The translations under genes were made by a program, and so were the position numbers. The notes beneath the pieces were generated by a model. It was not told the origin of the DNA. It searched no databases and saw only the letters and a program-made list of their open reading frames with translations. Shown here one piece after another: positions 46,340-63,490 of a stretch of 64,000 bases of DNA. This stretch comes from Catellatospora sp. TT07R-123 (lineage in GTDB: Bacteria; Actinomycetota; Actinomycetes; Mycobacteriales; Micromonosporaceae): the NCBI RefSeq assembly GCF_018327705.1, contig NZ_BNEM01000001.1, forward strand, positions 1,922,001-1,986,000. Reading direction: 5' to 3'. Numbering within the stretch: position 1 is the stretch's first letter; the number at the start of each line of letters is the position of its first letter.

Positions 46340-47795
46340 GCTGCTGCTGCCCGACCTCGACGACGACGCCGACACGGGCGCCGACCTGCTGCTGCCCGCC
46401 GAGCCGCGGACCCGGGCCATCGCCCGCGAGCTGTACGCCCAGGCTCGCGACCTGCCGCTGATCAGCCCGCACGGGCACGTCGACCCGGGCATCCTGGCCG
46501 ATGACGCCGCGTTCCCGGACCCGGCCCGGCTGATCATCGTGCCCGACCACTACGTGACGCGGATGCTGCTCAGCCAGGGCATCGGCCCGGAGGAGCTGGG
46601 CGTGCCGCGCGTCGACGGCGGTGCCACCGAGGCCGACCCGCGCCAGGTGTGGCGGCTGTTCGCCCGGCACTGGCACCTGTTCCGGGGCACCCCGTCGCGG
46701 CTGTGGCTGGAGCAGACCTTCCGCACCGTCTTCGACGTGCACACCCCGCTGGGCCCGGACACCGCCGACCGGGTGTACGACGAGCTGGCCGCGCGCCTGG
46801 CGGAGCCGGACTTCCGGCCCCGGGCGCTGTTCACCCGGTTCAACCTGGAGGTGCTGGCCACCACCGAGTCGCCGCTGGACGACCTGTCCCGGCACGCCCG
46901 GCTGGCGGCCGACGGCTGGGGCGGCCCGGCCGGGCGGGTGATCACCACGTTCCGGCCCGACGACATGGTCGACATCGAGTGGCCCGGCTGGCCCGAGCGG
47001 GTGGCGCGGCTCGGGGCGATGACCGGGGTGGACACCGGCACGTACGCGGGGTTCCTGGAGGCGCTGCGGTCGCGGCGGCTCGACTTCATCGCGGCGGGCG
47101 CGACCTGCTCCGACCACGGGCACCTGACCGCCGCCACCGGCGGAGCCGACCCGGCCGAGGCCGCCGCGATCTTCGACCGGGCGCTGCGGACCGGTGCGGC
47201 GAGCGCGGCCGAGGCGGAGGCGTTCCGGGCCCGGATGCTGCTGGAGTTCGCGGCGATGTCGGTCGACGACGGCCTGGTCATGCAGCTGCACCCGGGTGCG
47301 GTGCGCAACCACAACCGGACCCTGCACACCAGGCACGGCCGCGACGTGGGCGGCGACATCCCGCAGGCGACCGAGTACACGCACGCGCTGCGGCCGCTGC
47401 TGGAGCGGTTCGGGCACCACCCCGACTTCCGGGTCGTGGTGTACACGCTGGACGAGCACACGTTCAGCCGCGAGCTCGGGCCGCTGGCCGGCGGCTACCC
47501 GGCGATGTTCGTCGGGGCGCCGTGGTGGTTCCTGGACGCACCCGAGGCGCTGCGCCGCTGGCGGGAGGCGGTGACCGAGACCGCCGGCTTCTACAACACG
47601 GCCGGTTTCGTCGACGACACCCGCGCCTACTGCTCGATCCCGGTGCGCCACGACGTGGCCCGGCGCGTGGACGCCGGGTTCCTGGCCCGGCTGGTCGCCG
47701 AGCACCGGCTCGGCCTCGACGAGGCCGCCGAGACCATCGCCGACCTGGCCTACCACCTGCCCAAGAAGATCTTCAAGATTGGACCGCGCGCATGA
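46332..47795 (+). CDS. uxaC: Uronate isomerase
   Basis: The 487-aa protein matches glucuronate/galacturonate isomerase (amidohydrolase superfamily). It has the metal motif SPHGHVDPGILADD near residue 45, IIVPDHYVTRMLLSQGI, VITTFRPDDMVDIEWPGW, and MQLHPGAVRNHNR with the late MFVGAPWWFLDAPEA. It interconverts D-glucuronate/D-fructuronate and D-galacturonate/D-tagaturonate in the cytoplasm. The ATG at 46332 lies inside the end of the Gfo/Idh gene, and its stop overlaps the next start (ATGA). It is the anchor for reading this operon as hexuronate catabolism. Confidence 0.95.
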   Translation: MAELLLPDLDDDADTGADLLLPAEPRTRAIARELYAQARDLPLISPHGHVDPGILADDAAFPDPARLIIVPDHYVTRMLLSQGIGPEELGVPRVDGGATEADPRQVWRLFARHWHLFRGTPSRLWLEQTFRTVFDVHTPLGPDTADRVYDELAARLAEPDFRPRALFTRFNLEVLATTESPLDDLSRHARLAADGWGGPAGRVITTFRPDDMVDIEWPGWPERVARLGAMTGVDTGTYAGFLEALRSRRLDFIAAGATCSDHGHLTAATGGADPAEAAAIFDRALRTGAASAAEAEAFRARMLLEFAAMSVDDGLVMQLHPGAVRNHNRTLHTRHGRDVGGDIPQATEYTHALRPLLERFGHHPDFRVVVYTLDEHTFSRELGPLAGGYPAMFVGAPWWFLDAPEALRRWREAVTETAGFYNTAGFVDDTRAYCSIPVRHDVARRVDAGFLARLVAEHRLGLDEAAETIADLAYHLPKKIFKIGPRA

Positions 47796-49072
47796 AGATC
47801 ACCGAAGCCGTCGTGCACGACGTACGGTTCCCCACCGCCGCCGCCGGGGACGGCTCCGACGCCATCAACCGCGGCGACTACTCGGCCGCGTACGTCGAGC
47901 TGCACACCGACGGCGGCCCGGTCGGCACCGGGTTCACCTTCACCAACGGACGCGGCAACGAGATCGCCTGCGCCGCGATCCGGGCCCTGGCGCACCACGT
48001 GGTCGGGCGGACCCTGGAGGAGATCTTCGCCGAGCCGGTGGCGTTCTGGCGGTCGCTGTCGGCCGACGTGCAGCTGCGCTGGCTGGGGCCGGAGAAGGGC
48101 GTCATCCACATGGCGACCGGCGCGCTGGTCAACGCGGTGTGGGACCTGCGCGCCAAGGCCGAGGGCAAGCCGATGTGGCGGCTGCTGGCCGAGCTGAGCC
48201 CGGAGGAGCTGGTCGCCAGCGTCGACTTCCACCACATCAGCGACGCGATCACCCCGGCGGAGGCCCTGGAGCTGCTGCGGGTCGACGACGGGTACGCCGA
48301 CCGGCTGGCGGTGCTGGAGCGCGACGGGTTCCCGTCGTACACCACGTCGGTGGGGTGGCTGGGATACCCGGACGAGCAGGTGCGGGAGCTGACCCGGGCG
48401 GCGTACGCGCAGGGGTGGCGGGCGATGAAGATGAAGGTCGGCGGGCCGATCGAGGACGACCTGCGCCGGGCGCGGCTGATCCGGGCCGAGATCGGGCCGG
48501 ACGCGCTGCTGATGATGGACGCGAACCAGGTGTGGGACGTGGACGAGGCGGTCGCGAACATGGCGGTGCTGGCCGAGGTCGACCCGTACTGGATCGAGGA
48601 GCCCACGCACGCCGACGACGTGCTCGGCCACGCGGCCGTGGCCAGGGCGGTCGCGCCCGTCCGCGTCGCCACGGGCGAGGTCGCGGCCAACCGGGTCATC
48701 TTCAAGCAGCTCATGCAGGCCGGGGCGATCCAGGTGTGCCAGGTGGACGCGTGCCGCGTCGGCGGCGTCAACGAGGTGCTGTCGATCCTGCTGCTGGCGG
48801 CCAAGTTCGGCGTGCCGGTCTGCCCGCACGCGGGCGGCGTCGGCCTGTGCGAGTACGTCCAGCACCTGTCGGTCTTCGACTACCTGCGCCTCGGCCGCTC
48901 GCTGGACGGCCGGATGGTGGAGTACGTCGACCACCTGCACGAGCACTTCGAGGACCCGATCACGGTCATCGAGGGCCGCTACCGGCTGCCGCGGCAGCCC
49001 GGCTACTCGGTCACGCTGAAGGCGTCGTCGATCGCGGAGTTCTCGTTCCCCGACGGGCCGGTGTGGCGGTGA
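47792..49072 (+). CDS. Enolase-superfamily sugar-acid dehydratase, L-fuconate dehydratase-like
   Basis: The 426-aa protein resembles L-fuconate dehydratases: SDAINRGDYSAAYVEL at the N-terminus, catalytic KMK (Lys213, Lys215), metal ligands Asp243 (MMDANQVW), Glu269/270 (WIEEPTH) and Glu296 (ATGEVAANR), and His346 in CPHAGGVGLCEY. L-fuconate dehydratase gives 2-keto-3-deoxy-L-fuconate. In this operon the step expected after isomerase and reductase is dehydration of mannonate or altronate to 2-keto-3-deoxygluconate, so the enzyme may have that specificity instead. The 4-base overlaps on both sides show translational coupling. Confidence 0.88.
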   Translation: MKITEAVVHDVRFPTAAAGDGSDAINRGDYSAAYVELHTDGGPVGTGFTFTNGRGNEIACAAIRALAHHVVGRTLEEIFAEPVAFWRSLSADVQLRWLGPEKGVIHMATGALVNAVWDLRAKAEGKPMWRLLAELSPEELVASVDFHHISDAITPAEALELLRVDDGYADRLAVLERDGFPSYTTSVGWLGYPDEQVRELTRAAYAQGWRAMKMKVGGPIEDDLRRARLIRAEIGPDALLMMDANQVWDVDEAVANMAVLAEVDPYWIEEPTHADDVLGHAAVARAVAPVRVATGEVAANRVIFKQLMQAGAIQVCQVDACRVGGVNEVLSILLLAAKFGVPVCPHAGGVGLCEYVQHLSVFDYLRLGRSLDGRMVEYVDHLHEHFEDPITVIEGRYRLPRQPGYSVTLKASSIAEFSFPDGPVWR

Positions 49073-50478
49073 GCGCCCGGCTCGGCCGGGCCGCGCTGGC
49101 CCGGCTGCCCGAACACGCCCGCCCGCTGATCGAGCCGGGCGCGGCCCGCACCGGCGTGGTCCACTTCGGCCTGGGCGCTTTCCACCGCGCCCACCAGGCC
49201 GTCTACACGGAACTCGCGATGGCGCGCGGCGGCGGCGACTGGGCCGTCACCGCGATCGCCCCCAGCTCCCGCACCGTCCTGGACGCCCTGCGCGCCCAGG
49301 ACCACCTCTTCAGCGTCGTGACGCTCAGCGCCGACCAGGCAGGTGCAGTCCAGCGTCCACACCACATGCGGTGTGACGACACCACAGGTGGTGTGGACGC
49401 TGCACGGACCCGGGTGGTCGGGGCGATCGCGGACAGCGTGCTCGCGGCCGAGGATCCGCAGGCGGTGGTCGCGCTGCTGGCAGATCCGGGGGTACGGGTG
49501 GTGACGCTGACGGTCACCGAGAAGGCCTACCGCGCCGAGGCGGCCGTGCCGCGACTGCTGATCGCCGGGCTGGCGGCCCGCGCCCGCGCCGACGCGGGGC
49601 CGATCACACTGCTGAGCTGCGACAACCTGCCGTCCAACGGACGGACCCTGGACCGCCTGCTGAGCGGGATGCTCCCCGGCGACCTGCGCGACTGGTACGC
49701 CGACAGCGTCACGTGCCCGTCCAGCATGGTCGACCGGATCGTGCCGGCCACCACCGCGCAGACCCTCGGCCTGGCCCGCGCCGACCTCGGCGTCGACGAC
49801 CTGGCCGCCGTGGCGGCCGAGCCGTTCTCGCAGTGGGTGATCGAGGACCGGTTCGCCGCCGGACGCCCCGACTGGGCGGCGGCGGGAGCCGTGTTCACGG
49901 ACGACGTCACCGCCTGGGAGCACCTGAAACTGCGCGCGCTCAACGGCGTGCACAGCGCCCTGGCGTACCTGGGCGCACTGGCGGGCTGCGAGGCCATCGC
50001 CGACGCGCTGGCCCTGCCCGGCGCGGCCGCCCTGCTGCGCCGCTACGTCGCCACCGAGGTCGCGGCCTCGATGACTCCCCCACCCGGCGTCGACGTCACC
50101 GCATACGGCGACCAGGCACGGGAACGGTTCGCCAATCACGCGCTCGGGCACCGGTGCCTACAGGTGGCGATGGACGGCACGCAGAAACTCCCCCAGCGGG
50201 TGCTGCCCATGCTCGCCGCGCCCGACCCGAACCTGACCTGCCTGATCCTCGCGGCATGGGCCAGGTTCGCCGAGGGTACGGCCGACGACGGCACCCCGCT
50301 GCCGCTGAACGATCCGCTGGCCGCAACGGTCCGCGCCGACCTCACCACCGAGGCCCTGTTCGGCCCCGGCGGCGTGCTCCCGGTGCCCGACCCGGCCCAC
50401 CGCAAGCTGATCGACTCCTGGCGCACCGCCCTGGCCCGCCACGGCGCCGCCGCCCTCCTCGCGGCGGAGGCCCGGTGA
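49069..50478 (+). CDS. Mannitol dehydrogenase-family oxidoreductase (fructuronate/tagaturonate reductase type)
   Basis: The 469-aa protein has the family N-terminus VVHFGLGAFHRAHQAVYTE, VTLTVTEKAYR, LLSCDNLPSNGRTLDRLL, MVDRIVPATT and the catalytic-type segment LKLRALNGVHSALAYLG. Members reduce fructuronate to mannonate or tagaturonate to altronate with NADH, the step following UxaC. The GTG start overlaps the dehydratase stop (GTGA). Between HLFSVVTLSAD and ARTRVVGAIAD lies an extra stretch of about 20 residues encoded by a nearly perfect nested palindrome (49351-49402), absent from the usual family pattern. Confidence 0.9.
   Translation: MSARLGRAALARLPEHARPLIEPGAARTGVVHFGLGAFHRAHQAVYTELAMARGGGDWAVTAIAPSSRTVLDALRAQDHLFSVVTLSADQAGAVQRPHHMRCDDTTGGVDAARTRVVGAIADSVLAAEDPQAVVALLADPGVRVVTLTVTEKAYRAEAAVPRLLIAGLAARARADAGPITLLSCDNLPSNGRTLDRLLSGMLPGDLRDWYADSVTCPSSMVDRIVPATTAQTLGLARADLGVDDLAAVAAEPFSQWVIEDRFAAGRPDWAAAGAVFTDDVTAWEHLKLRALNGVHSALAYLGALAGCEAIADALALPGAAALLRRYVATEVAASMTPPPGVDVTAYGDQARERFANHALGHRCLQVAMDGTQKLPQRVLPMLAAPDPNLTCLILAAWARFAEGTADDGTPLPLNDPLAATVRADLTTEALFGPGGVLPVPDPAHRKLIDSWRTALARHGAAALLAAEAR
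49351..49402. repeat. Palindromic insertion inside the dehydrogenase gene
   Basis: The outer arms cagcgtccacaccac (49351-49365) and its complement (49388-49402) enclose a second stem ggtgt/acacc (49370-49374 with 49379-49383). The 52-bp element is in frame and adds residues around VQRPHHMRCDDTTGGVDA. Confidence 0.85.
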
Positions 50479-53179: not shown

Positions 53180-54598
53180 ATGAAACACGGGTACATCCCC
53201 GGCCATCGACGGGCCAGACGGCTCGGCACGGCCGCGGCGGGCGGCACCGCGCTGCTGGCGCTGCTGCTCGCGGCCCTGATGAGCCTCACCGGCGGGGTCG
53301 CGCTGGCCGCGACCCTGTTCTCGGACAACTTCGACGACGGGGAGGCGTCGGGCTGGACCAAGTCCGGCGGCGACTGGTCGGTCGTGTCCGACGGCTCATC
53401 GGTGTTCCAGCAGGGCAAGGTCGACAGCGAGCTGGCCCGGCAGTTCGGCGGCAGCACCTCGTGGACGAACTACACCGTCAGCGCCCGGGTGAAGCCGACC
53501 GGCTTCAGCGGCTCGGGCCGGTACGCGGCACTGGGCGCCCGGTCCACCGGCTCGTCCACCCGCTACCAGCTCGCGCTGCTCAACAGCGGGCGCGCCGAAC
53601 TCCAGGTGGTCGACGGCAGCGCCGTCACGGTGATCGGCGGGGTGAACCTGGCCGTCTCCACCGGCACCTGGTACACGCTCCAGCTCACCGTCAGCGGCTC
53701 CACGCTGACCGGCTGGGTCAACGGGCAGCAGGTCGGCTCGGGCAGCAGCTCGCAGTTCGCCTCGGGGCGGATCGTGCTGGTCACCTCGTACGCCACGGCC
53801 CGCTTCGACGACGTCGTGGTCTCCGACGCGGGCGGCCCCGCCCCGACCACCGCCGGTCCGGCGCCGAGCGCGTCGCGTACGCCGGGCACCTCGCCGTCCC
53901 CGGCCCCGTCGTCCAACCCGGGCACCGTCCCGACGTGGCCGACGAAGTCCGGTGACGCCGGCCTGCCCAACGGCACCATCCAGGTCAGCGGCGTGTTCGA
54001 CGGCGGCATGAAACGCTACTGCTGCATCGGCGACGGCGGACAATCCGAAAGCCAAGACCCCATGTTCGAACTCGCCAACGGCGCCACCATCAAAAACGTC
54101 ATCCTCGGCTCCCCCGCCGGAGACGGCATCCACTGCCTGGGCACCTGCACCATCCAAAACGTCTGGTGGGAAGACGTCGGCGAAGACGCCGCCACCTTCC
54201 TCCAGACCAACGGCGGCACCTCCTACATCATCGGCGGCGGCGCCAAATCCGCCTCCGACAAGGTGTTCCAGCACAACGGCAACGGCACCGTCAACATCAG
54301 CGGCTTCTACGTCGAAAACGCCGGCAAGCTCTACCGCGCCTGCGGCAACTGCACCAACAGCTACCAGCGCAACGTCGTCATCGACAACGTCTGGGTCAAA
54401 AGCACCAGCGTCGTAGCCGGCATCAACACCAACTGGGGCGACACCGCCCGCTTCACCCGCATCAACGTCTACAGCACCAGCACCATCATCTGCGACAAAT
54501 ACAAAGGCGCACCCAAGGGCAGCGAACCCACCCACATCGGCAGCGGCGCCGACGGCGTCAACTGCTTCTACAACCCCACCGACATCATCCAGCGGTAA
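53180..54598 (+). CDS. Secreted pectate lyase, family PL3, with N-terminal lectin-like domain
   Basis: The 472-aa protein has a signal peptide (to about residue 44), a concanavalin/LamG-like domain at about 45-216 (FSDNFDDGEASGWTKSGGDW, TGTWYTLQLTVSG), a Pro/Thr/Ser linker (217-245), and a PL3 domain at about 248-472 (MKRYCCIGDGGQSESQDPMF, GDGIHCLGTCTIQNVWWEDV, KVFQHNGNGTVNISGFYVEN, SYQRNVVIDNV). PL3 enzymes cleave polygalacturonate with calcium. AAGGAGG precedes the ATG. The catalytic module's DNA is over 99% identical with that at 61852-62543, and it uses many A-ending Lys/Glu/Gln codons unlike its neighbours. Confidence 0.93.
   Translation: MKHGYIPGHRRARRLGTAAAGGTALLALLLAALMSLTGGVALAATLFSDNFDDGEASGWTKSGGDWSVVSDGSSVFQQGKVDSELARQFGGSTSWTNYTVSARVKPTGFSGSGRYAALGARSTGSSTRYQLALLNSGRAELQVVDGSAVTVIGGVNLAVSTGTWYTLQLTVSGSTLTGWVNGQQVGSGSSSQFASGRIVLVTSYATARFDDVVVSDAGGPAPTTAGPAPSASRTPGTSPSPAPSSNPGTVPTWPTKSGDAGLPNGTIQVSGVFDGGMKRYCCIGDGGQSESQDPMFELANGATIKNVILGSPAGDGIHCLGTCTIQNVWWEDVGEDAATFLQTNGGTSYIIGGGAKSASDKVFQHNGNGTVNISGFYVENAGKLYRACGNCTNSYQRNVVIDNVWVKSTSVVAGINTNWGDTARFTRINVYSTSTIICDKYKGAPKGSEPTHIGSGADGVNCFYNPTDIIQR
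53904..54595 (+). repeat. 692-bp direct repeat (PL3 catalytic module), copy 1
   Basis: Compared by eye with 61852-62543, this stretch differs at only about four positions (53917, one synonymous Gly codon, and two bases in a Lys-Ser/Lys-Thr pair). Both copies are in the same orientation, 7948 bases apart. Confidence 0.9.
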
Positions 54599-59224: not shown

Positions 59225-59719
59225 ATGGGGCACGACTTCGACGCGCTGTACGCGGCGCACTTCACCTCGCTGACGGCGCAGCTTTACGCGTACCTCGGGG
59301 ACCGGCAGGAGGCGCAGGACGTCACCCAGGAGGCGTTCTGCCGGGCGCTGGCCCGCTGGCGCGACGTCAGCGCGTACGACGACCCGGTCGCCTGGGTGCG
59401 CCGGGTCGCCTGGAACCTCGCCACCTCGCACTTCCGGCGGCTGAAGGTCGCCGCGGCGTTCCGGCGCAGGCACCGGGAGGAGCAGGTCCCGGCGCCGAGC
59501 CCGGACCGCGTCGCGCTGTTCGCCGCGCTGCGCACGCTGTCGCCGCAGCCCCGGCAGGCGGTGGTGCTGCACTACCTGGCCGACCAGTCGGTGGCCGACA
59601 TCGCCGTGTCGATGCAGGTGTCGACCGGCACCGTGAAGTCGTGGCTGCACCGGGCGCGTACCGCGCTGGCCGGGCAGCTCCAGCCCGCCCCGGACGCCGA
59701 GGAGGCCCGCGATGCCTGA
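59225..59719 (+). CDS. ECF sigma factor, SigE-like subfamily
   Basis: The 164-aa protein has sigma region 2 (FDALYAAHFTSLTAQLYAYL, DRQEAQDVTQEAFCRALARW) and region 4 (LRTLSPQPRQAVVLHYLADQ, VADIAVSMQVSTGTVKSWLH). This is the compact SigE-type ECF factor of actinomycetes. GGGAGGG before the ATG at 59225 sets the start. The following gene overlaps it by 8 bases and encodes a membrane protein, which is the usual position of a regulator of the sigma factor. Confidence 0.93.
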   Translation: MGHDFDALYAAHFTSLTAQLYAYLGDRQEAQDVTQEAFCRALARWRDVSAYDDPVAWVRRVAWNLATSHFRRLKVAAAFRRRHREEQVPAPSPDRVALFAALRTLSPQPRQAVVLHYLADQSVADIAVSMQVSTGTVKSWLHRARTALAGQLQPAPDAEEARDA

Positions 59720-60671
59720 GCAGACCGACCCGATGACCGAGGCGTTCTTCCAGTTCCGGCTGGAGGCGCCGCACGAGGTCGTGGTGCCGGGGGCGGCGGC
59801 GGCCCGGCGCACCGTGCAGCGGCGCCGTACCGCCCGTACCGGCGTGCTCGCCGCGATCGCCGCGATCGCGCTGGCCGCGGGCGCCTATACCGCGGGCGTA
59901 CGGGCGACCCGCACCACCGAGCCCGCCGGGCCGTCGGCTGCGCCGTCGTCCCCGCCCCTGACCGACGAGCAGCTACAGCCGCTCGGCGTGCGGGCGCTGC
60001 GCATCCTCGGCTACCTTCCGGAGCAGGCACGACCCGGCATGCTCTTCGGGCCGGTCGGTGCCGGGGTCAGCGGCTTCAGCTACTCGTTCGGCACCCCGCA
60101 GGACCCGCTGCCGCTCGGCGAGTACACCCTGCGGGCGGTCTGCGTCGGCGGCGCCGGGCAGGTCCGGCTGCGCTGGGAGGCCGCCGACAGCCACCGTTAC
60201 GTGTCCGTGCCCTGCGACGAGACGGTCACCCAGTTGACGGTCGCGCTGACCGCGGTCAGCGCGGCCACCATCACGTTCAGCGGAGACGATCGGGCGGGCG
60301 GGCACTCAGGCATCGCCGTCACCGTGACCAACCCCAACCTCATCCGTGCCGAGCAGGCCTTCCTGTCCGCGACCGGACCGTTCCTGAGCCGCGGCTCGGG
60401 TGAGCTGAACGCGACTCGCCGCGACGTCGACGAGGCGGTGACGTCCGGGTCGTTGCGCCTGGACGTAGCCTGCGCCGGGGCGGGCGTCGTCACCGTCCGG
60501 CTGATCCTCGGCGGCTCGACGGACACGGCCGAGGTGCCTTGCACGTCGTCTCCGCAGCTGGTCACGCTGCGCCTGGATGATGCGCGGGGCGGGCCGCTGA
60601 CCGTCGAACTCGACCCGGACCAGGAGGCGTTCAAGGTGTCGGCCGCCGCCTACCGGGTACGCCGGGCGTGA
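59712..60671 (+). CDS. Membrane protein coupled to the ECF sigma factor
   Basis: The 319-aa protein has a short cytoplasmic N-terminus (about 45 residues, ending in RRTVQRRRTARTG), one transmembrane helix (about 44-62), a Pro/Ser/Thr linker and a large extracellular beta-rich part with two similar segments, each containing a cysteine pair (CVGGAGQVRLRWE...VPC; CAGAGVVTVRLIL...VPC). The N-terminus lacks a recognisable zinc anti-sigma domain, so an anti-sigma role is inferred from gene order only. Confidence 0.75.
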   Translation: MPEQTDPMTEAFFQFRLEAPHEVVVPGAAAARRTVQRRRTARTGVLAAIAAIALAAGAYTAGVRATRTTEPAGPSAAPSSPPLTDEQLQPLGVRALRILGYLPEQARPGMLFGPVGAGVSGFSYSFGTPQDPLPLGEYTLRAVCVGGAGQVRLRWEAADSHRYVSVPCDETVTQLTVALTAVSAATITFSGDDRAGGHSGIAVTVTNPNLIRAEQAFLSATGPFLSRGSGELNATRRDVDEAVTSGSLRLDVACAGAGVVTVRLILGGSTDTAEVPCTSSPQLVTLRLDDARGGPLTVELDPDQEAFKVSAAAYRVRRA

Positions 60672-60750
60672 ACCGCCGACGGGACCGGCCGCGCACCGGG
60701 GGCGGGCCCTCCGCCATCCCGACCCACCCCCAGCCCCAACCCACCCCTCC

Positions 60751-60863
60751 TTCATAGACCACCCACCCCTTCTTCATAGACCGCCCACCTCTTCTTCATA
60801 GACGCTGGCCTATTACATAGAAGATGATCTTCTTGGAGTCGACGTAATTGGCCAGCGTCTATG
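60751..60863. repeat. 22-bp tandem repeats leading into a nested hairpin
   Basis: ttcatagac begins at 60751, 60773 and 60795, exactly 22 bases apart. The third unit forms the left arm catagacgctggcctattac (60797-60816), which pairs with 60844-60863 except for one base. Inside lies agaagatgatcttct (60819-60833), itself a hairpin. The block is much AT-richer than its surroundings. Confidence 0.85.
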
Positions 60864-60926
60864 GATCGCGCCACAGGGAGACGCCTTCCCCCCGGACCCT
60901 GCGGAGATCCTGGCGGCCAGCTCCGA

Positions 60927-61040
60927 CCGCAGCCAGCGATCTTCGCGCAGAGATCGCAGTTTCCGGTCACCCCCAGCGGTCCACGCCCAGGTCTTGACCG
61001 ACGACAGCGATCTTCACGCGGAGATCGCCGCCTGCGGTCA
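60927..61040. repeat. Two direct copies of a family C hairpin
   Basis: The units at 60927-60970 and 60997-61040 each read gaccg...gcgatct...agatcgc...cggtc, so each can fold with an outer gaccg/cggtc and an inner gcgatct/agatcgc stem. They are 70 bases apart and related to the family C arms at 12116 and 39827. Confidence 0.75.
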
Positions 61041-61085
61041 CCTTCTGCGGTCGGGCCCGGCCCCACCACCCCATCCAGCCGAGTC

Positions 61086-61145
61086 GATCACGGCGCCAGG
61101 GTGGCGACACACCGTCGAACCCCGCCATAAGTTCATGATCAACGG
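61086..61145. repeat. Intergenic repeat D, copy 2
   Basis: This 60-bp stretch (gatcacggcgccagggtggc to ccataagttcatgatcaac) is the inverted counterpart of 11994-12054, and it is also next to family C repeats. Confidence 0.8.
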
Positions 61146-61210
61146 GTGGGGGCGGGGCCAGGGTCGGGGCGGGGGCGGGGGCGCGGGAGGGCGATGTGGG
61201 CCTTCCCGGT

Positions 61211-61224
61211 GGAAAACGCTTGCC
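61211..61224. promoter_or_regulatory. LacI-type operator upstream of the CBM2-PL3 gene
   Basis: The sequence ggaaaacgcttgcc shares aaacg-ttgc with the uronate operators. It lies about 140 bases upstream of the gene start. The match is weaker than at the other four sites. Confidence 0.45.
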
Positions 61225-61361
61225 GTACGATGCATTGCAGGGAGCCGTATCGATGTCTCAGCGCCCTGCCGGCAGCCGCCGCCGACCCCTGGGCAGGGGA
61301 GTCGAAGCGCCCGTCCGGCAGACGGGCGGGCGCACCCCCACTCACCTCGGGAGACTCCCCC

Positions 61362-62546
61362 ATGTACCCACGACGGCGCCGTACGGCGCTGCTCGCCTCA
61401 GCCGCGGCACTGCTGACAGCCCTGACCGCCGGGGCGCTCATGGCCGCCCCCGCCGCCCAGGCCGCCAGCGGCTGCCAGGTCGCCTACTCGGTCACGTCCC
61501 AGTGGCCGGGCGGGTTCAGCGCCAACATCGCCATCACCAACCTCGGCTCGGCCGTCAACGGCTGGACCCTGAACTGGACGTTCACCGCGGGCCAGGCCGT
61601 GACCCAGGCGTGGGGGTTCACCGCGAACCCCGCCAGCGGCGCGGTCACCGCCCGCAACGTCGACTACACCGCCGCCATCCCGACCAACGGCACGGTCAGC
61701 GTCGGGTTCAACGGCTCCTGGAACAACTCGGCCAACCCGGTGCCCGCCTCGTTCACCCTCAACGGGACGGTCTGCACCGGATCGGTGACCAGCCCGGCGC
61801 CGAGCGCCACCCGCAGCACGGCCCCCAGCCCGTCGCGCTCGGTGACGCCTTCCCCGTCGTCCAATCCGGGCACCGTCCCGACGTGGCCGACGAAGTCCGG
61901 TGACGCCGGCCTGCCCAACGGCACCATCCAGGTCAGCGGCGTGTTCGACGGCGGCATGAAACGCTACTGCTGCATCGGCGACGGCGGACAATCCGAAAGC
62001 CAAGACCCCATGTTCGAACTCGCCAACGGCGCCACCATCAAAAACGTCATCCTCGGCTCCCCCGCCGGAGACGGCATCCACTGCCTGGGCACCTGCACCA
62101 TCCAAAACGTCTGGTGGGAAGACGTCGGCGAAGACGCCGCCACCTTCCTCCAGACCAACGGCGGCACCTCCTACATCATCGGCGGAGGCGCCAAATCCGC
62201 CTCCGACAAGGTGTTCCAGCACAACGGCAACGGCACCGTCAACATCAGCGGCTTCTACGTCGAAAACGCCGGCAAGCTCTACCGCGCCTGCGGCAACTGC
62301 ACCAACAGCTACCAGCGCAACGTCGTCATCGACAACGTCTGGGTCAAGACCACCAGCGTCGTAGCCGGCATCAACACCAACTGGGGCGACACCGCCCGCT
62401 TCACCCGCATCAACGTCTACAGCACCAGCACCATCATCTGCGACAAATACAAAGGCGCACCCAAGGGCAGCGAACCCACCCACATCGGCAGCGGCGCCGA
62501 CGGCGTCAACTGCTTCTACAACCCCACCGACATCATCCAGCGGTAG
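61362..62546 (+). CDS. Secreted pectate lyase, family PL3, with N-terminal CBM2
   Basis: The 394-aa protein has a signal peptide (RRRRTALLASAAALLTALTA, cleavage near AAQAA), a cellulose-binding CBM2 at about 36-140 with the Cys38-Cys138 pair and aromatic WPGGFSANIAITNLG and NGWTLNWTF segments, a Ser/Pro/Thr linker (141-168), and a PL3 domain (170-394) nearly identical with that of the 53180 gene. The CBM would hold the enzyme on cellulose in plant cell walls while it cuts nearby pectin. GGGAG precedes the ATG. Confidence 0.94.
   Translation: MYPRRRRTALLASAAALLTALTAGALMAAPAAQAASGCQVAYSVTSQWPGGFSANIAITNLGSAVNGWTLNWTFTAGQAVTQAWGFTANPASGAVTARNVDYTAAIPTNGTVSVGFNGSWNNSANPVPASFTLNGTVCTGSVTSPAPSATRSTAPSPSRSVTPSPSSNPGTVPTWPTKSGDAGLPNGTIQVSGVFDGGMKRYCCIGDGGQSESQDPMFELANGATIKNVILGSPAGDGIHCLGTCTIQNVWWEDVGEDAATFLQTNGGTSYIIGGGAKSASDKVFQHNGNGTVNISGFYVENAGKLYRACGNCTNSYQRNVVIDNVWVKTTSVVAGINTNWGDTARFTRINVYSTSTIICDKYKGAPKGSEPTHIGSGADGVNCFYNPTDIIQR
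61852..62543 (+). repeat. 692-bp direct repeat (PL3 catalytic module), copy 2
   Basis: This copy matches 53904-54595 except at about four bases. The sequences upstream and downstream are unrelated, so the duplicated unit is the tip of the linker plus catalytic domain, ending at the stop codon (TAA in copy 1, TAG here). Confidence 0.9.
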
Positions 62547-62553
62547 ATGCTGA

Positions 62554-62590
62554 CCGCGGCCGGGCGTCCGCCTCGGGCGCCCGGCCGCGG
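62554..62590. terminator. Bidirectional hairpin terminator
   Basis: Perfect 13-bp arms ccgcggccgggcg (62554-62566) and cgcccggccgcgg (62578-62590) with an 11-nt loop lie between convergent stops at 62546 and 62599. Confidence 0.8.
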
Positions 62591-62598
62591 GACGCGGT

Positions 62599-63372
62599 TC
62601 AGCGCGGCAGTTCCTGTCCGGTCAGCTCCGCGCACAGGGCCAGCAGGCGGTCCTGCACCGACAGGTCGTACGCGGCCGGGTTGGCCTTGAGGTCCCGGCG
62701 GCGCTTGAGATAGCGGCCGGTGAACCCGACCTCCGACTCCGGCGCCGCGGCCAGCCACACCTGCGTCTCGGCGCCGTCGGGCAGCTCGTCGACGGCGTTC
62801 TGGCCGCCCATCCGGGTCTTGATCCAGCCCGGGTCGACGGCGTTGCTGAGGGTGCCCGGCCACAGCCGGGCGACGGCGAACGCGAGCGCGACGTCGTACA
62901 GCTTGGAGTCGCTGTAGGCCTGCATGCCGTCCCAGGGCCTGCGCGCGTACTGCGGGTCGTCGAGGTCGGCGCGGCCGCCCGCCTCCAGGCCCGAGGTCAG
63001 GTAGACCAGGCGGCCCGGCGCGGGCATCAGGGCCGTCAGCAGGTACGGCGCCAGCACGTTGACGGCGAATATCCGCTCGATGCCGTCGGGGGTCACCTCG
63101 CGGTGCGCCGCCCCGCCGCCGACGCCCACGTTGTGGACCACGCTGTCGTACGGCCCGAGCGCGTTAGCCGCGAGCGCCAGCGCCCGGGTCTGGGTAAGCT
63201 CGGAGACGTCGCCCACCACGACCGCGGCCGCGTCCGGCACCGCCGCGCGCACCTGGTCGGCCCGGGCCTCGTTCCGGGCGTGCAGGACGACGCGGTGGCC
63301 GTCGCGCGCAAGCGTGCGGGCGGTCTCCAGGCCGATGCCGTCGGCCGATCCGGTCACGAAGATGCTGCTCAT
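62599..63372 (-). CDS. Short-chain dehydrogenase/reductase
   Basis: The 257-aa protein has the SDR cofactor motif FVTGSADGIGLETARTLARDG, VVVGDVSELTQTR, VVHNVGVGGGAAH (in place of NNAG), the catalytic YSDSK with LVYLTSG upstream, and VDPGWIKTRMGG. The second half is short and variable as in many uncharacterised SDRs. GGAGGAAG sets the ATG at 63372. The substrate is unknown. It is divergent from the last gene in the window. Confidence 0.9.
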   Translation of the reverse strand: MSSIFVTGSADGIGLETARTLARDGHRVVLHARNEARADQVRAAVPDAAAVVVGDVSELTQTRALALAANALGPYDSVVHNVGVGGGAAHREVTPDGIERIFAVNVLAPYLLTALMPAPGRLVYLTSGLEAGGRADLDDPQYARRPWDGMQAYSDSKLYDVALAFAVARLWPGTLSNAVDPGWIKTRMGGQNAVDELPDGAETQVWLAAAPESEVGFTGRYLKRRRDLKANPAAYDLSVQDRLLALCAELTGQELPR

Positions 63373-63490
63373 GACTTCCTCCACTGTCTGGAGTGAAAAC
63401 GCTACCCACGTGGTTTAGGCGTCGCGGACGCCGGGTACGCGATCGCTCGCGTCTATGCGGACGCGGCCACGACAACCCCCGGGAGGCACG

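Follow-up and report, generated by a model that had tools for sequence, protein, structure and literature searches.

The window analyzed here, a 64,000-nucleotide stretch of the genome of Catellatospora sp. TT07R-123, carries two genes for pectate lyases of polysaccharide lyase family 3 (PL3, PF03211), both on the forward strand. Gene A (53180..54598, 472 aa) combines a jelly-roll, LamG-like N-terminus (PF06439/PF13385) with the PL3 module; judging from its N-terminal sequence, the product is probably secreted. Gene B (61362..62546, 394 aa), the product of which is probably secreted as well, combines a CBM2 domain (PF00553) with the PL3 module. The two modules scored 256.7 and 256.5 bits against PF03211 (curated cut-off 25) and were the only PF03211 matches in the whole genome (9.17 Mb, two contigs). 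Compared with the solved PL3 structures, the module matched 13 distinct chains, with the best match to 1ee6 (E 5e-35), and its DKVFQ and GKLxR stretches aligned with this chain. Residues K283, K305, and R308 of gene B, which we take to be the conserved basic active-site residues (Lys, Lys, Arg) of PL3, were invariant across 16 aligned sequences and were aligned in 1ee6 too. The catalytic module matches the known family (PF03211; solved members 1ee6, 3t9g, 4ew9, 4z05) with scores far above the cut-off, and genes A and B would, by their families, encode polygalacturonate-cutting lyases. The modules themselves are ordinary by sequence, and their history alone is unusual.

Directly upstream of gene A lies a gene for a PL1-type pectate lyase (PF00544, 51759..53090, forward strand). 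The other genes preceding gene A encode a UxaC glucuronate isomerase (PF02614, 46314..47795, forward strand), a protein whose 3′-encoded part belongs to the mannitol dehydrogenase family (PF01232/PF08125; ORF 47779..50478, forward strand) and which is perhaps a fructuronate reductase, and a Gfo/Idh protein. Because these uronate and pectin genes precede it, gene A appears to sit within a pectin/uronate cluster. Gene B is found in a stretch (60672..62598) between two convergent genes, one without assigned function on the left (59712..60671, forward strand) and an SDR gene on the right (62599..63384, reverse strand). Upstream of gene B, positions 60781-61200 belong to a dispersed repeat. When 60672-61853 was compared with the genome, 57 matches were listed, a number that includes the query and CBM2 genes; more than 20 of these fell around 61075-61200, mostly at 75-94% identity. 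An Rfam search over the 50-64 kb part of the window gave no match at the gathering score.

The catalytic halves of the two genes were almost identical. Pairwise comparison of 53904-54595 with 61852-62543 revealed differences at exactly 4 of 692 bases (99.4% identity), in agreement with the approximate count in the initial annotation. The differing bases (gene A/gene B) were 53917 C/T, 54238 C/A, 54400 A/G, and 54402 G/C, amounting to three silent changes and one S/T exchange. Two of them fall into the same hexanucleotide (54398..54403, forward strand), which reads AAA AGC (K-S) in gene A and AAG ACC (K-T) in gene B. The outer edges of the match were located at 53904 and 54597 in gene A and at 61852 and 62545 in gene B; the shared tract (53904..54597 and 61852..62545, both on the forward strand) thus begins in the linker and extends two bases into the stop codon. 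Its edges are sharp, as the 100 flanking bases showed an ungapped identity of 41% on one side and 29% on the other. The stop codons are TAA in gene A (54596-54598), TAG in gene B (62544-62546), and TGA in the C. tritici orthologue.

Outside of the tract, Pfam bore out the earlier description of the N-terminal halves as unrelated, lectin-like in one gene and CBM2 in the other, with the lectin-like half assigned as a LamG-like jelly-roll. Whole-gene duplication as the source of the pair was ruled out, because the N-termini and the flanks are unrelated. The two copies are direct repeats, as had been proposed, with 7948 bases from start to start and 7254 bases between them. Recombination between the repeats, which would delete or duplicate the 7.9 kb between the copies, is plausible.

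The codon usage changed within the tract. The last 195 codons form a segment that is poor in G at third positions (G3) and rich in A- and C-ending codons, both in gene A (54011..54595, forward strand; change point 53948, support interval 53945-54014) and in gene B (61959..62543, forward strand; change point 61950, support interval 61893-61983). The gene A copy had a C3 of 0.83 and a G3 of 0.08, and 15 of 22 of its Lys, Glu, and Gln (K/E/Q) codons ended in A (14 of 22 in gene B), compared with a G3 of 0.43 and 89 of 1269 A-ending K/E/Q codons in the other window ORFs (Fisher p 1.6e-12), which came from a simple gene caller, some of them perhaps called in a wrong frame. At its 5′ end (53903-54010), the shared stretch has 36 codons of ordinary style (G3 0.36, A-ending 0/2). 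The enrichment in AAA, GAA, and CAA that had been ascribed to the entire module is therefore confined to these last 195 codons. The segment was also extreme at a larger scale. The two PL3 segments had the lowest G3 (0.072 and 0.082) among 2620 coding-like bins in a sample of 703 kb, which comprised the window and 32 further stretches and covered 7.7% of the genome. The lowest bin outside genes A and B had a G3 of 0.205; a codon scan thus shows that the codon use of the module does not match the genome sample. A-rich K/E/Q codons (13/21 in one scanning window) were also observed in a transposase-like gene (L197:12293-13186, C1:2712293-2713186), the style of which is near that of the PL3 segment, with a higher G3. 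Two further ORFs with A-rich K/E/Q windows were found in L189 and L214.

Comparison within the genus indicated which of the two genes is older at its site. All 11 genus genomes examined carry PL3, with 17 PF03211 matches, two of them in the genome of the window. The other 15 comprise 7 LamG-like + PL3 genes, 7 ricin-type + PL3 genes, and 1 gene cut by a contig end, where LamG-like denotes a match to the gene A N-terminus and the ricin-type class is our own assignment, with Pfam run on two of its members. None of the 14 readable PL3 genes in the other 10 genus genomes had a CBM2 N-terminus. The ricin-type PL3, found in 7 of these 10 genomes, is missing from the genome studied here. C. tritici (G009, L133) keeps the gene order idh - PL1 - LamG-PL3 - FAD monooxygenase - TetR - ArgO - LysR - sigma factor - 59712 gene - SDR. 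It lacks gene B, and the convergent neighbors end ~67 bp apart, compared with 1.9 kb here. Gene B is absent from G008 (L147) as well, where the same two neighbors lie ~60 bp apart; in this genome, a PL3 3′ end lies at the contig end beyond ArgO. The stretch that carries gene B is thus reduced to ~60 bp in both relatives in which the site was read, and the other eight genus genomes were read around their PL3 genes. The conserved gene order in C. tritici and the two empty gene B sites indicate that gene A is the resident PL3 of the lineage. Gene B is either a gain in this lineage or a loss elsewhere, probably a gain. The 59712-60671 gene, located beside the sigma-factor gene, evolves fast, with 56% protein identity to C. 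tritici compared with 89% for its neighbor.

To trace the front half of gene B, residues 1-160 were searched against a large protein set, in which scores were computed for the 7994 candidates with the most words in common. The top match was the CBM2-PL3 protein P0002 from a metagenome (239 bits, the next 209), followed at ranks 2-5 by two CBM2-PL3 proteins (P0004, P0003) and two proteins with CBM2 and PF22842 (209 and 207 bits). The gene B N-terminus was 74% identical to P0002, whereas no other match within its own genome exceeded 59% (over 154 residues). Many among the best 120 proteins listed for the whole of gene B were actinomycete CBM2-PL3 proteins. The front half of gene B therefore looks like that of an existing CBM2-PL3 gene. 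A recent within-genome duplication of this half was rejected, as no close copy was found (best 59% protein identity).

The reading that we favor, at somewhat better than even confidence, is that gene A recently converted a CBM2-PL3 gene (B), and that the odd 3′ piece had earlier come in from an unsampled donor. Gene A would be the old resident PL3 of the pectin/uronate cluster and gene B a CBM2-PL3 gene that was probably gained. At an earlier stage, a homologous PL3 piece of a donor with other codon habits would have taken the place of the last 195 codons. Recently, homologous recombination, presumably of the RecA type, would have copied the gene A module, beginning in the Ser/Pro-rich linker and ending at the stop codon, over a module that gene B would already have possessed. 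Such a stretch would comprise the entire homology between two genes of this kind, with the repair having run to both ends. The odd 3′ part would have been in place before the conversion or been spread by the same process. The outcome would be a pair of secreted lyases that have virtually the same active site, of which B would be anchored to cellulose through its CBM2 domain and A to another wall polymer through its jelly-roll domain. Because conversions normally end inside the homology and this tract fills all of it, several rounds of conversion or a fresh fusion are also possible.

In such a fusion, a copy of the gene A module, from linker to stop codon, would have been joined to a CBM2 N-terminus by illegitimate or short-homology recombination. 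We regard this as possible but doubtful. The site of gene B is empty in both relatives that were read, no readable PL3 gene elsewhere in the genus has a CBM2 domain, and CBM2 is plentiful in this genome, with a large set of 55 matches, all of which a fusion would readily accommodate. CBM2 proteins with other pectin-type catalytic families also follow close behind in the search with the front half of gene B, namely at the 209 and 207 bits given above. However, the nearest relative of the gene B N-terminus belongs to a CBM2-PL3 protein by a margin of 30 bits, the genome holds no recent source copy of this N-terminus, and a border inside the stop codon would need a coincidence. The initial annotation had offered domain shuffling and gene conversion side by side. 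Conversion is now the better choice of the two, and fresh shuffling the less likely one, because the nearest relative of the signal peptide, CBM2, and linker start of gene B is a CBM2-PL3 protein that already exists, and because the borders of the identical tract coincide with the expected limits of homology between two such genes.

The odd 3′ segment was compared with gene A of C. tritici. Synonymous third-position changes in the segment were G>C 23, G>A 16, T>C 3, T>A 2, and C>G 1, so that 39 of the 40 changes that gain or lose G lose it. In the N-terminal part of gene A, the exchange was balanced (G>C 11, C>G 11). The segment had a dS of 0.47, compared with 0.18-0.34 in six neighbors and the N-terminal part of gene A, and with 0.51 in one fast-evolving neighbor; its excess over seven pooled genes was significant (p 0.0015). 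The 33 codons preceding the segment were raised too (dS 0.40), although they look ordinary in codon usage. The dN of the segment (0.070) was like that of the flanks. Of the codons that specify the same residue, 126/173 were identical to those of the C. tritici orthologue, with 119 expected if the two were unlinked (z 2.9, reached by 4/2000 shuffles). This link was confined to the first third of the segment (z 2.5, -0.1, and -0.1 by thirds). Expressed as the share of the possible codon-match excess, it amounted to 13%, compared with 35% in the linker and module start, 49% in the N-terminal part of gene A, and 36-60% in the six neighbors. For comparison, the share was 16% between C. tritici A and G010, which belongs to a different LamG-PL3 group. 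Such a low codon link is consistent with a homologous piece of divergent origin. The odd codon style and the few synonymous choices in common with the orthologue suggest import of the 3′ segment, and it was from these two features that the earlier replacement of the last 195 codons was inferred.

Searches for a donor covered proteins and DNA. With residues 249-472 of gene A, C. tritici was the closest among the best 120 proteins listed (91% protein identity, the next 88%). DNA searches found matches in 201 of 300 family genomes, with C. tritici the best outside the own genome (87%), and in 99 of 394 genomes of the class, with 79% as the best outside the family. A donor nearer than C. tritici was found neither in these 300 and 394 genomes nor among the best 120 proteins. 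The codon style of the segment was likewise not seen in other PL3 genes. Across 139 locus rows, many of which represent one gene twice, G3 did not fall below 0.19, and at most 4/22 K/E/Q codons ended in A in the 60 rows of lowest G3. A further 17 PL3 rows, 8 of them overlapping the 139, had a G3 of 0.21-0.35 and at most 2 A-ending codons. A PL3 phylogeny had been proposed as a route to the donor group. In the best tree of 65 chosen sequences, the module adjoined mostly Dactylosporangium LamG-PL3 proteins (support 87/88), whereas the AU test was neutral: a clade with C. tritici A, though absent from the best tree, was not rejected (p 0.37), and no donor emerged. The earlier proposal that the module was recently acquired can apply to the 3′ 585 bases only, on the grounds of their codon style and synonymous choices. 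Codon usage is ordinary in the 5′ part, the protein tree favors neither side, and the searches above did not yield a donor.

Alternatively, the 3′ segment could be native and have been recoded in place by mutation or selection, through loss of third-position G, with no import at all. This we consider unlikely. The dN equal to that of the flanks, the vertical descent left unrejected by the protein tree, the codon link to the orthologue above nil, and the empty-handed family, class, and protein searches all speak for it. On the other side stand the sharp change point within one gene, the small codon link that vanishes in the last two thirds of the segment, and the fact that no other bin in 703 kb had a G3 <0.2. 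Moreover, we know of no process that recodes 195 codons in this way. The codon segment is unusual, and perhaps it was imported.

The direction of the transfer can be read in part from the two ends of the tract. Over its first 33 residues, C. tritici A shared 29/33 residues with the shared stretch, compared with 26/33 for P0002, 23/33 for P0003, and 24/33 for P0004; among the rows listed, the two LamG-PL3 proteins P0112 and P0117 reached 27/33. The motif PSS.PGT.PTWPTKSGDAGLPNGTI was common to the shared stretch and C. tritici A and was not found in P0002-P0004. For the 5′ part, the direction from gene A to gene B is thus favored by a small margin. At 54398-54403, C. tritici A reads AAG AGC (compare AAA AGC in gene A and AAG ACC in gene B). 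Of P0002-P0004, P0002 alone shares the K-T-T of gene B, which is weak evidence that this site may be a remnant of the former gene B module.

For the 3′ part, both a grouping with C. tritici A (p 0.37) and a grouping with the CBM2-PL3 proteins P0002-P0004 (p 0.34) withstood the AU test, so the 3′ sequence alone fixes no direction. This leaves room for a reverse order of events, in which the 3′ piece arrived with gene B and converted the 3′ part of gene A, after which the linker and 5′ part of gene A converted gene B. Such an order would account for the entry of the odd piece into the genome. Nevertheless, we judge it improbable, as it requires two opposite conversions, the N-terminus of gene B is itself not odd in style (G3 0.34, A-ending K/E/Q 0/5), and the A-ending codon at 54400 belongs to gene A and not to gene B. 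An assembly artefact, in which the true gene B module was overwritten by that of gene A during consensus building or polishing, is very improbable. Although only one contig is known to encode each protein, there are four differences between the copies, their flanks are dissimilar, and both lie on a single 4.69 Mb contig.

Conversion of gene B by gene A would not be an isolated case if other PL3 pairs carry similar traces. On the tree of 65 sequences, the type of binding domain changed 15 times, where 3 changes would suffice. Exact runs were called overlong when reached by at most 4/2000 codon shuffles. Such runs were found in 5 of 27 within-genome PL3 pairs, taken from 25 other genomes, and in 6 of 260 between-genome controls (Fisher p 0.0016, a guide only, since sequences recur among the controls and runs can also arise from conserved stretches of protein). 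The contrast faded at looser cut-offs (6/27 vs 12/260 at 10/2000 and 6/27 vs 22/260 at 20/2000), and the median identity of the controls was ~0.71, compared with 0.85-0.92 in the three strongest within-genome pairs. In a smaller run with more similar controls (identity 0.87-0.96, 25 of 120 eligible), none was at or below 2/1000 and the lowest was at 8. Two pairs were left out: that of G088, in which a contig end truncates one of the copies, and that of G119, which is the D. vinaceum pair again.

The longest exact runs were observed in Dactylosporangium AC04546 (143 bp; PL3 proteins P0118, given as ricin-type, and P0122, given as LamG-like), D. vinaceum (142 bp; LamG-like vs ricin-type), and Streptosporangium KLBMP 9127 (125 bp). 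One control pair, two ricin-type genes from Catellatospora, had a run of 123 bp. Loci with long exact PL3 runs were L069:5001-5660/L124:5001-5660, L240/L241, and L072/L125, and the binding domains differ within each of the first two pairs. The window pair itself reached its longest run in 1211/2000 shuffles, which is uninformative since the copies are near-identical throughout; with 99.6% identity over 678 bp, it was the most alike of the PL3 pairs compared (the next 94%). The excess of overlong runs within genomes indicates that conversion between PL3 paralogues may recur.

The D. vinaceum pair of LamG-PL3 and ricin-PL3 genes (L069, L124) is the closest parallel. Its modules are 92% identical, with the 142-bp exact run, its N-termini are unrelated, and the homology begins in the linker and ends at the stop codon. 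In contrast to the window pair, its match is patchier, and the event is therefore probably older. Ectopic gene conversion and concerted evolution between bacterial paralogues are known phenomena, and genes A and B resemble them in having a near-identical tract within otherwise unrelated genes, with borders at the ends of the homology. They depart from them in that the binding domains of the partners are not the same and that the tract is in part odd in codons. Domain shuffling is likewise a general notion for carbohydrate-active enzymes, and it is reflected here in one catalytic module that occurs with LamG-like, ricin-type, or CBM2 partners; the difference is that the event probably overwrote a gene already in place and did not assemble a new one. 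No literature on PL3 gene conversion was found among titles and the openings of abstracts. Genes A and B are an ordinary PL3 enzyme pair with a clear recent shared tract, most likely produced by gene conversion, and not a new kind of system.

In the favored history, a catalytic module was refreshed beneath two different substrate-targeting domains, in a direction that is partly readable from synteny. A broader view, which we put forward tentatively and hold to be less probable than not, is that actinomycete PL3 modules behave as interchangeable cassettes, where the differing binding domains would be kept, recurrent intragenomic conversion would spread one catalytic sequence, and foreign pieces would be passed on. 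For researchers working on modular enzymes, the two genes are of interest as a natural enzyme pair, the modules of which differ by one residue and three silent changes, and which offers a clean test of the role of the binding domain.
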